From contig JAGXLC010000011.1 of NCBI GenBank assembly GCA_018334875.1, forward strand, positions 1-34,187: a stretch of 34,187 nucleotides of DNA, written 5' to 3'. A model generated the notes under the pieces. That model saw nothing but the letters and a program-made list of their open reading frames with translations, made no database searches and was not told the DNA's origin. Positions within the stretch are counted from its first letter, which is position 1. Each line of letters opens with the position of its first letter. This DNA comes from Bacteroidales bacterium (GTDB taxonomy: Bacteria; Bacteroidota; Bacteroidia; Bacteroidales; UBA12077). Positions 3,465-34,187 of this stretch are shown here, in pieces. The translations under genes were made by a program, and so were the position numbers.

Positions 3465-3467
3465 CAT

Positions 3468-3571
3468 TTCCGGGCAAGTCTCATACGACCAGCTCCCGCT
3501 AAATTCCCCCAGGTCCGGAAGGAAGCAAGGGTAGGCGGTTGAGCGGTGCGATATGAGTCGCTTGTCCGGAT
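3468..3571 (+). ncRNA. ffs: Signal recognition particle RNA (4.5S, small bacterial type)
   Basis: About 100 nt that fold into one long hairpin: CCGGGCAAG with TCTCATA on the 5' side pairs with TATGAGTCGCTTGTCCGG on the 3' side. The apical part carries the conserved domain IV core CAGGTCCGGAAGGAAGCA followed by GGGTAGG, including the GGAA tetraloop and the asymmetric loop that binds Ffh. It forms the RNA core of SRP, which targets membrane and secreted proteins to FtsY and SecYEG. The ends are set by the base-paired termini; the exact 5' and 3' nucleotides are uncertain by a few bases. No ffh or ftsY is nearby, which is normal. Confidence 0.95.
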
Positions 3572-7074: not shown

Positions 7075-7181
7075 TTTTTTGAAATTTTTATGTGTTAATA
7101 AAATTGATGCAAAAATATGTACCTTTTTTTATCCTCCAAATGACGTGCATCATAATGTTGTTATTTGAACGGATTTTAAAT

Positions 7182-7360
7182 AGAGTCTGTCTATAATATC
7201 CGCTGGCTGCGTTACGCTCGTTTTTCATGCCAGTCGATTACTTCTGGTAGAGACGTACGGCCGTACCTCTCTACATTTGCCATTCAAAACCCGCAAGCCT
7301 TGCCAGCGAACATTCTAGACGAGACTCTTTCAAATCTCCTTGACTTTATGGACACACACT
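7182..7360 (+). repeat. Dispersed palindromic repeat, copy 1 (with nested palindrome)
   Basis: Imperfect terminal inverted repeats: GAGTCTGTCTATAAT through CCGCTGGC at the left (7183-7207) and GCCAGCG through TAGACGAGACTC at the right (7302-7327). A conserved tail of about 33 bases follows (TTTCAAATC, then TTGACTTTATGGACA). Copies also occur at 9946 and, inverted, at 25299. The centre differs from the other copies by a 28-base near-perfect palindrome at about 7248-7275. No protein is encoded. It has the look of a non-autonomous, MITE- or REP-like element filling the gap between the ferredoxin and the M20 gene. Confidence 0.8.
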
Positions 7361-7368
7361 AAATAAGC

Positions 7369-8857: not shown

Positions 8858-9943
8858 ATGAAAAGAATGCTCATTCTTTCGGGCTTGATATTGGTGTTGG
8901 CCTATTCCTTGAAAGCTCAGCAGAAAGAGCCGGAGCTTGTTTTTGATAAAACCACCCATGATTTTGGCCAAATAAAAGAAGATGGGGGGAAGGTAACCCA
9001 CAAATTTACTTTTACGAACACGGGTGCCAAACCACTTGTTATTAATGAAGTGAAGGCAGCTTGTGGTTGTACTTCTCCCTCCTGGAGTCAGCAACCCATT
9101 TCATCCGGTAAAAAGGGTTATGTGAGTGCTACATTTGACCCTCTCCGTCGTCCCGGCAGTTTTAATAAAAGTATACTGCTCAGGACCAATGCCTCGGATG
9201 AAACGGTGATATTAAGGATTAAAGGTAAGGTGCTGCCTAAAAAGAAAACACTGGCCGACAAGTATCCAAGACAAATGGGAGATTTGCGTCTGAAGTCACA
9301 TCATATGGCTTTTGTAGAAGTGAAACATACGGAGACTAAGCGGGATTCTCTGGCTATTGCCAATGCTTCCGATCAAAAGATGACTTTATCTTTTTCCGGT
9401 GTCCCCGAACATATTGATCTGAACACCAAATCAAAAGTTTTAAAATCCGGAGAAGAAAGTTATATTTATGGTACATATGACGCTACCCAGATCAACGACT
9501 GGGGTTTCAAAATGGATCGGGTTCGTATAAAAGTTAATGGAAACAATGTAGCTCACAATACATTGGTTATTTCAGCCAAAATTTCCGAGGATTTCTCCGA
9601 TCTTTCGCAGCAAGAGAGAAAAAGTGCACCGAATGTAGAATTTGAAGAAACTACATTCAATTTTGGTACGGCCAAACAAAATAAAGAGATAGAACATGTA
9701 TTTCGATTCAAAAATACGGGAAAACGGGACCTGAAAATACGGAAAATACGTGCCACGTGTGGCTGTACAACGGTAAACCCCGATAAAGAGGTGATTGGGC
9801 CGGGTGAGCGCAGTTCTTTTAAGGCTGTTTTTCATACAGGAAGCAGGGAAGGGCATCAGCATAAATCAATATACTTCATTTCCAATGATCCGGATAATAG
9901 CAATGTGAAACTTAATATAAAGGGGAAGGTTGAGAAAAATTAA
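8858..9943 (+). CDS. Exported protein with two DUF1573 domains
   Basis: 361 residues with an N-terminal signal peptide (MKRMLILSGLILVLAYSLKA). Two copies of the DUF1573 immunoglobulin-like domain are visible: about 28-124 (FDKTTHDFGQIKEDGGKVTH, ending in LRIKGKV) and about 273-361 (FEETTFNFGTAKQNKEIEHV, ending in LNIKGKVEKN). Each keeps the hallmark ACGCT / TCGCT motif with two cysteines. The middle (about 130-265) is probably a further diverged domain of the same fold. DUF1573 is widespread in Bacteroidetes and related to the ASH/PapD-like domains; its function is unknown but export suggests periplasm or cell surface. Palindromic repeat copy 2 starts 2 bases after the stop. Confidence 0.88.
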   Translation: MKRMLILSGLILVLAYSLKAQQKEPELVFDKTTHDFGQIKEDGGKVTHKFTFTNTGAKPLVINEVKAACGCTSPSWSQQPISSGKKGYVSATFDPLRRPGSFNKSILLRTNASDETVILRIKGKVLPKKKTLADKYPRQMGDLRLKSHHMAFVEVKHTETKRDSLAIANASDQKMTLSFSGVPEHIDLNTKSKVLKSGEESYIYGTYDATQINDWGFKMDRVRIKVNGNNVAHNTLVISAKISEDFSDLSQQERKSAPNVEFEETTFNFGTAKQNKEIEHVFRFKNTGKRDLKIRKIRATCGCTTVNPDKEVIGPGERSSFKAVFHTGSREGHQHKSIYFISNDPDNSNVKLNIKGKVEKN

Positions 9944-9945
9944 GT

Positions 9946-10058
9946 AGAGGCTGTCTATAATGTCCGCTGGCTTCGTTACGTTTATTTTTCATGCCAGTCA
10001 TCCGGTACTGGCCGGCCTACTGGCATTCAGAACCCACAAGCCTGGCCGGCGAATATTT
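9946..10058 (+). repeat. Dispersed palindromic repeat, copy 2 (right end decayed)
   Basis: Starts AGAGGCTGTCTATAAT and continues through CCGCTGGC, matching copy 1. An inner stem TGCCAGT / ACTGGCA is intact at about 9992-10025. The right arm reads GCCGGCGAATATTTAA, after which similarity ends, so the outer right end and the tail are lost. It fills the whole gap between the DUF1573 and meaB genes. Confidence 0.72.
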
Positions 10059-15321: not shown

Positions 15322-15350
15322 TTTCAAATCTATTTGACTTTATGGACAAA
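15322..15350 (+). repeat. Solo tail of the dispersed palindromic repeat
   Basis: TTTCAAATCTATTTGACTTT followed by ATGGACAAA is identical over 29 bases to the tail of repeat copy 3 (complement of 25301-25329) and close to copy 1. The palindromic body is missing. It begins on the base after the lpdA stop codon. Confidence 0.72.
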
Positions 15351-15370
15351 AACAGATTATTTGACAATAG

Positions 15371-25262: not shown

Positions 25263-25298
25263 AAAAAACATCTTCTCAGGTGCATTCCCAATAATTAG

Positions 25299-25453
25299 TG
25301 TTTGTCCATAAAGTCAAATAGATTTGAAAGAGTCTCGTCTAGAATATTCGTTGGCAAGGCTTGCGAGTATTGAATGCCAGGAGTTTACTTGATGTAATCG
25401 ACTGGCATGAAAAACGAGCGTAATGCAGCCAGCGGATATTATAGACAGACTCT
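25299..25453 (-). repeat. Dispersed palindromic repeat, copy 3 (complete, inverted)
   Basis: Read on the minus strand it begins AGAGTCTGTCTATAAT, passes CCGCTGGCTGC, has an inner stem TGCCAG / CTGGCA at about 25375-25407, then GCCAACGAATATTCTAGACG and ends in the tail TTTCAAATCTATTTGACTTT plus ATGGACAAACA. It is the most complete copy. It lies 41 bases past the smpB stop, where it could end transcription from either direction. Confidence 0.82.
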
Positions 25454-25494
25454 AATTATAATGTATTTTAAGATTCGACAGTCCCCCAGCCTGA

Positions 25495-33418: not shown

Positions 33419-33507
33419 GGAGAGATGGGAGAGCGGCTTAATCCACCGGTTTGCTAAACCGGCGTGCCCTGAATAGGGTACCGGGGGTTCAAATCCCCCT
33501 CTCTCCG
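33419..33507 (+). tRNA. tRNA-Ser (anticodon GCU, reads AGC/AGU)
   Basis: 89 nt. The acceptor stem GGAGAGA pairs with TCTCTCC, the anticodon loop is TTGCTAA between CCGGT-type stems (ACCGG / CCGGT), a long class II variable arm GTGCCCTGAATAGGGTAC is present, and the T-arm is GGGGGTTCAAATCCCCC. The discriminator is G; the CCA end is not encoded. A terminator lies 12 bases downstream. Confidence 0.97.
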
Positions 33508-33825: not shown

Positions 33826-33905
33826 CGGGGTGCAGCCCCGCCGTTGGCGGGGCACTGACTTGGGAAGTCGGGAGAGTCGCAGGTACGAATCGGGAAGTGG
33901 CATTA
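33826..33905 (+). repeat. tRNA-like repeat unit A
   Basis: Starts CGGGGTGCAGCCCCGCC. It reads as the 5' acceptor strand CGGGGTG, a D-arm turned into the perfect hairpin GCCCCGCC-GTT-GGCGGGGC, a complete 5-bp anticodon arm CTGAC-TTGGGAA-GTCGG (anticodon GGG, proline), and GTCGCAGGTACGAATC resembling the 5' T-arm. The 3' part CGGGAAGTGGCATTA does not pair with the acceptor or T-stem, so it is not a normal tRNA. Confidence 0.72.
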
Positions 33906-33938
33906 CTAAAGGACTTTGAAATAGCATATAAGATATAT

Positions 33939-34017
33939 CGGGGTGTAGCCCCGCCGTTTGCGGGGCACTGATTTGGAAGTCGGGAGAGTCAAAAGCTCGA
34001 ATCTGCTGGTGCCATTA
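33939..34017 (+). repeat. tRNA-like repeat unit B
   Basis: CGGGGTGTAGCCCCGCC, then hairpin loop GTTT and GCGGGGC, then CTGATTTGGAAGTCGG where the anticodon loop is one base shorter than in unit A. The T-arm part reads AGCTCGAATCTGCTGG and the end GTGCCATTA. The spacer after it (AGCAAAGAACTATGAAATA) is related to the spacer after unit A (CTAAAGGACTTTGAAATA), so the repeat extends past the tRNA-like part. Confidence 0.68.
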
Positions 34018-34055
34018 GCAAAGAACTATGAAATAAACTAAAAAAGAAGATTTCT

Positions 34056-34105
34056 CTGGGTGTAGTCCCGCCTATTTGCGGGGCATCCCTTTGAGAGGTT
34101 AAAAG
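34056..34105 (+). repeat. tRNA-like repeat unit C (truncated)
   Basis: CTGGGTGTAGTCCCGCC, loop TATTT, GCGGGGC, then similarity fades before the anticodon arm (ATCCCTTTGAGAGG). Only the first half of the unit is left. Confidence 0.6.
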
Positions 34106-34110
34106 AAATT

Positions 34111-34187
34111 CGGGGTGTAGCCCCGCCGTTGGCGGGGCACTGACTTGGGAAGTCGGGAGAGTCGCAGGTACGAATCGGGAAGTGGCA
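34111..34187 (+). repeat. tRNA-like repeat unit D (cut by the window edge)
   Basis: Differs from unit A at one base (T for C in TGTAG) across the 77 bases visible. Such identity next to two diverged units suggests recent duplication or gene conversion. The unit, and perhaps the array, continues beyond the window. Confidence 0.72.

Follow-up and report, generated by a model that had tools for sequence, protein, structure and literature searches.

What are the three dispersed palindromic copies that lie between genes in the window (the whole stretch of 34,187 nt analysed here), and by what means have they spread? The copies come from a draft Bacteroidales genome of 4.72 Mb in 533 contigs. In our view they are probably copies of a non-autonomous DNA transposon (MITE) moved in trans by a DDE-type transposase.

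Copies in the window and in the genome

The first-pass annotation had described three copies with several motifs in common, and all three are present with these motifs. It had found the right loci, and their exact limits are corrected here to 7183-7359, 9947 to about 10057, and 25298-25452. Its outer ends, GAGTCTG... and ...GAGACTC (GAGTCTGTCTATAAT / TAGACGAGACTC), did not hold, as comparison of the copies puts the conserved tail inside the element. On the right the element truly ends in this "tail", TTTGACTTTATGGACAAACAC; the ...GAGACTC further in repeats the left end in inverted form. The element runs from GAGTCTGTCTATAAT to TTTATGGACAAACAC, covers 155 or 177 bp and is longer than first described. 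The distances to the nearest stop codon, given earlier as 2 to 42 bases, measure 9, 3 and 42 nt. The features are as follows.

7177-7182, no strand: left 6-bp target duplication of copy 1, TAAATA, read from the sequence
7183-7359, plus strand: copy 1, full element of 177 bp, with both ends and the TAAATA duplication
7247-7274, no strand: palindrome GTAGAGACGTACGGCCGTACCTCTCTAC, nested within the copy 1 loop, from the sequence and the size classes
7360-7365, no strand: right 6-bp target duplication of copy 1, TAAATA, read from the sequence
9941-9946, no strand: TAAGTA, the left target sequence that copy 2 retains; the TAA stop of the DUF1573 gene (ORF end 9943) overlaps it
9947-10057 (end approximate), plus strand: copy 2, lacking its right end, with the MeaB gene just beyond, from alignment to other copies
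15322-15353, plus strand: bare right end TTTCAAATCTATTTGACTTTATGGACAAAAAC directly after a stop codon, from the repeat family and the sequence
25292-25297, no strand: TAATTA, target duplication flanking copy 3 on its right-end side, read from the sequence
25298-25315, minus strand: right terminal repeat of copy 3, GACTTTATGGACAAACAC, matched exactly in the genome and phylum-sample searches
25298-25452, minus strand: copy 3, full element of 155 bp, with both ends and the TAATTA duplication
25330-25452, minus strand: hairpin part of copy 3, from the DNA fold (z = -3.57) and covariation
25453-25458, no strand: TAATTA, target duplication flanking copy 3 on its left-end side, read from the sequence

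The nested palindrome of copy 1 supplies the extra length of the 177-bp class. The bare right end at 15322-15353 is, judging from its sequence, a probable remnant of a further copy. Elsewhere in the window, Rfam models matched a Bacteroidales small SRP RNA at 3465-3571 and a tRNA gene at 33419-33507; downstream of the tRNA, GC-rich tandem repeats with a period of about 112 (CGGGGTGTAGCCCCGCCGTTGGCGGGGCACTGA...) fill the window end at 33826-34187.

When copy 3 was used as a genome-wide query, at least 42 alignments were obtained, from the 40 of 107 candidates that were scored. With up to two mismatches the right end had 94 matches in the genome against 5 for the reversed pattern, and the left end 122 against 7, some of the 122 being right ends. 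The genome holds about 90 copies or more in 4.7 Mb, far beyond chance. The search for more copies proposed earlier has found many, though not the several hundred thought possible. Full elements fall mainly into classes of 155/156 and 176/177 bp, and full 155-bp copies diverge from each other by about 5%. Their terminal inverted repeats, GAGTCTGTCTATAA / GTGTTTGTCCATAA, are imperfect, and these short, non-coding elements contain no transposase or other gene.

Target duplications, relatives and the proposed moving enzyme

The clearest trace of mobility lies in the flanks of elements that were delimited by their ends alone. Identical 6-bp flanks were found in 37 of 60 elements from this genome (shuffled mean 9.8, maximum 16) and in 55 of 80 foreign elements (shuffled mean 12.5, maximum 20), and no other duplication length showed a comparable excess in either set. 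The foreign set was collected via the right-end sequence, so that its end statistics are ascertained and its duplications are not. The duplication has the consensus TAWWTA. Both flanks of a copy agree while the 6-mer itself varies among copies, the signature of insertion via a 6-bp staggered cut.

Comparison with relatives points the same way. No element match was detected anywhere in the three genomes of the same genus (G001-G003). In these genomes PEMT, M20 peptidase and DUF1573 are still neighbours, except that the short G001 locus showed no PEMT, and no such end occurs there. The gap from the DUF1573 match to the MeaB match is about 52 bp in G001, against about 130 bp in the window, where copy 2 stands between them. 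Since the proteins are only about 60% identical, no empty site could be aligned at the nucleotide level between this genome and G001-G003; the empty-site check in sister genomes has nevertheless given element-free syntenic loci at PEMT-M20-DUF1573. The first-pass annotation had counted a lack of further copies and of empty sites against a mobile element, and the outcome favours mobility.

A 20-base right-end pattern searched in genome contigs gave at least 106 stretches in about 35 assemblies among the matches listed. Carriers among these are mostly metagenome-assembled genomes (MAGs) of Bacteroidales and other Bacteroidota, together with the isolate Marinilabilia salmonicolor and assemblies labelled Chlorobiota, Treponema, Delongbacteria and Neomarinimicrobiota. 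A single carrier has up to 413 end matches, and the Marinilabilia isolate has more than 100 exact ends. The family is patchy: in a sample spread evenly over the phylum, the exact end is absent from all 295 other genomes. Carriage by phages or plasmids was rejected, since plasmid and phage records yielded nothing convincing for these ends, and 12 matches on viral contigs look like chance and have no paired right end nearby. In many Bacteroidota the same ends and duplication surround homologous or different bodies. One copy (L302:1232-1383, contig C34 of G044) sits inside a broken IS4-like transposase gene; it was discarded as an empty-site test because its flanking 6-mers differ (TAAATA/TATTTA) and the insertion is not clean.

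How could such elements move? A DDE-type transposase supplied in trans would bind the two ends of about 18 bp (GWGTYTGTCYATAAAGTC type). It would transfer the element, or a copy of it, into a staggered 6-bp cut made at TANNTA, and repair of this cut would leave the 6-bp duplication. That no transposase lies nearby, as first reported, was upheld and counts toward a MITE. The proposed check for a transposase with matching ends returned no matching autonomous IS. Scans for end pairs at all loci examined, including those of the Marinilabilia isolate, revealed neither an autonomous element nor a transposase with such ends, and every inspected pair was either a short element or belonged to separate elements around host genes. 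Several candidates for the parental IS were dropped. Long end pairs proved to be host genes between separate elements, the half-bodies with a long insert at L151 and L210 hold no transposase, and the DDE_Tnp_1 genes of carriers are not bounded by these ends. A Marinilabilia IS with a similar-looking end, GTGTCTATTA (L291), lacks the 6-bp TANNTA duplication, and PF13751 is absent from the genome under study. Draft assemblies tend to be interrupted at multi-copy ISs, and the transposase families tested were few, so that an ordinary parental IS is possible.

Prokaryotic MITEs such as Correia, RUP, ERIC and MITEAba12 have been reviewed (PMC10969869). The element resembles them in being short and non-coding, in its terminal inverted repeats and flanking direct repeats, in insertion into AT-rich intergenic DNA and in high copy number. 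It differs from the described MITEs that were compared in its 6-bp TANNTA duplication, in a right end that lies outside a covarying hairpin, in one body found with different ends, in forms of 38-39 bp and in the lack of any autonomous partner in our searches. Among Bacteroidota, Porphyromonas gingivalis carries MITE239, MITEPgRS/464, MITE700 and BrickBuilt; the ends of its MITEs match the IS5-family elements ISPg1/3/4/9, and BrickBuilt duplications vary in length (PMC4596501). Some P. gingivalis ends also start with GAG. In contrast, the ends here are of the GWGTYTGTCYATAAAGTC type, the duplication is constant at 6 bp and the searches turned up no matching IS; the ends differ from published ISPg and MITE ends, and none is of the IS5/ISPg type. 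Our literature search met no relevant paper that prints these ends and none that recognisably describes the family.

The first-pass annotation had also considered REP/BIME sequences. REPs are stem-loops of 20-40 bp with an unpaired GTAG or CGTC tag, mostly arranged as head-to-head dimers; GTAG REPs are tied to Y1 (RAYT) transposases, whereas CGTC repeats, found in Bacteroidetes, Chlorobi and Spirochaetes, have no known transposase (PMC3733652). The copies here are likewise dispersed extragenic palindromes, and like CGTC repeats they come without a known transposase. Unlike REPs, the element measures 155-177 bp, has terminal inverted repeats and 6-bp duplications, and forms head-to-tail arrays; by sequence and fold, none of the window copies is a 20-40 bp stem-loop with a GTAG or CGTC tag. 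We consider it unlikely that the element is REP/BIME-like and that a Y1 transposase (RAYT or IS200/IS605) moved it in the form of folded single-stranded DNA. The retained long hairpin with its DNA-like pairing would suit such a mover, Y1 genes occur in many carriers, and G000 has three of them against none in G001 and G003 and one weak match in G002. However, the target duplications are exact, and to our knowledge Y1 enzymes make none; the high-copy genomes G039 and G052 have no Y1 match (their assemblies may be incomplete), and the non-carriers G006 and G007 have Y1. On distribution and target duplications, a Y1 transposase was rejected as the mover. The MITE reading, in contrast, agrees with the small size, the non-coding body, the terminal repeats, the 6-bp duplications, the high copy number and the element-free syntenic loci.

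Exchanged ends, minimal forms and arrays

In the family mate G019 a related body stands between the ends GTGGCTATAAGAAAACG.../...GTTTTCTAAGATGCAC. G012 and G022 have a related body with the ends GTGTCAGCAAGAAAACACC... These mates with different ends also sit at TANNTA targets; five of nine duplications are identical and one of the nine is cut by a contig edge. The converse case, unrelated bodies with the first type of ends, was also observed. Some elements reach hardly beyond their two ends. Those of a Treponema MAG (G046), 38-39 bp long and flanked by identical 6-bp duplications, are as follows.

L172:7584-7623: short element, which may be the same site as the next
L332:585-624: short element
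L339:376-414: short element

One form of 39 bp (L031) is present in the genome under study. Units of this size would test the minimum size of mobile DNA.

Tandem arrays were found at L163, L198, L201, L204, L210 and other loci, with a single 6-bp target copy common to adjacent units. Both units could be oriented at 11 junctions, and all 11 are head-to-tail. This counts against the MITE reading, as random insertion at a symmetric target leaves it unexplained. The arrangement brings to mind a cassette-like element handled by a tyrosine recombinase, with a 6-bp crossover between two ends like a dif-type or Tn916-type core site. At each array junction two ends do form a palindrome with 6 bp between them, and head-to-tail units are expected of circles that recombine at a shared core. 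Such a recombinase is nonetheless quite improbable, as the 6-mer varies among copies while matching on both sides of each, and the targets in the genome under study have no arm sequence beyond the 6-mer.

The hairpin body and the placement of copies

Many foreign elements have a homologous body with the conserved stretches CGTTACGCT, GTCATTTAC, GTAAACTCC and TTCGCAAGCCT. When folded, these elements form a long hairpin between the left end and its internal inverted copy, and the right end remains outside, as in copy 3. Across genomes, compensatory changes were detected in 20 of 30 hairpin pairs, and 93.7% of cells in the hairpin alignment are paired, against 79.7% when shuffled and at most 41.5% when slid. 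The left-end 7-mer varies between elements. An internal copy was located in 40 foreign elements, and in 32 of these it is identical to the 7-mer. As many as 108 cells have changed on both sides, and only 9 of about 700 paired cells hold G-T/G-U pairs. This near-absence of G-T pairs suggests DNA pairing or DNA-templated copying rather than RNA. Within the single genome, the outer stem shows no compensation (2 two-sided cells against 1.4 expected), so that fast hairpin-templated correction is unsupported there as the sole cause of covariation, though over long times it may have acted. Single copies seem to drift freely while the lineage that spreads keeps its pairing, which suggests, without proving it, a role of the hairpin in mobility. 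The hairpin body would then probably aid propagation, since pairing is kept in spreading lineages.

Strong covariation could also mark a structured RNA or 3'-UTR element that has a host function and is merely dispersed, and many copies do stand just after stop codons. Among the 46 copies classified in the genome under study none lies inside an ORF; 13 lie between convergent genes, 11 between divergent genes, and those between tandem genes are 14 sense and 8 antisense. A role as terminator or in mRNA is disfavoured by the mixed orientation and the divergent-gene placements. Target duplication and stop codon frequently overlap, or the first base of the element completes the codon (distances 3 and -1). 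TAA and TAG fit the TANNTA target, and insertions by the DDE-type enzyme would therefore often fall on stop codons and leave the protein unchanged. With G-U pairs almost missing, outer-stem changes uncompensated within the genome, a patchy presence and no covariance-model match for the element in Rfam 15 at gathering or relaxed thresholds, we regard an RNA function as very unlikely. An assembly artefact or chance similarity, which the 533 contigs and some copies near contig ends might suggest, is hardly conceivable given matches about 20-fold above the reversed-pattern controls and the same ends and duplications in independent assemblies and an isolate.

The covarying hairpin body, the ends swapped at the same TANNTA target, and the 38-39-bp forms and arrays exceed what an ordinary MITE displays. 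The body of a MITE commonly passes for filler. In this family it is preserved across genera, with compensatory changes and even between different ends, and this points to a role of the DNA hairpin in mobility. We tentatively propose, as a less probable extension of the MITE reading, that the elements are a family of hairpin-dependent mini-transposons. One conserved hairpin body combined with different ends, and units down to 38-39 bp, would then depend on an unlinked, possibly domesticated transposase that makes the 6-bp TANNTA duplication, as a DDE-based counterpart of REP/RAYT. A family so abundant and so patchy poses the question of which carrier enzyme makes this duplication.

Two further short elements of the same genome, L082:1055-1220 (contig C230) and L121:1067-1221 (contig C196), have no clear target duplication; they hold a different body (CACAGAGT..CACGGAG type) between the related ends GAGTTTGTCCATAAAGTC.../...GACTTTATGGACAGACTC.
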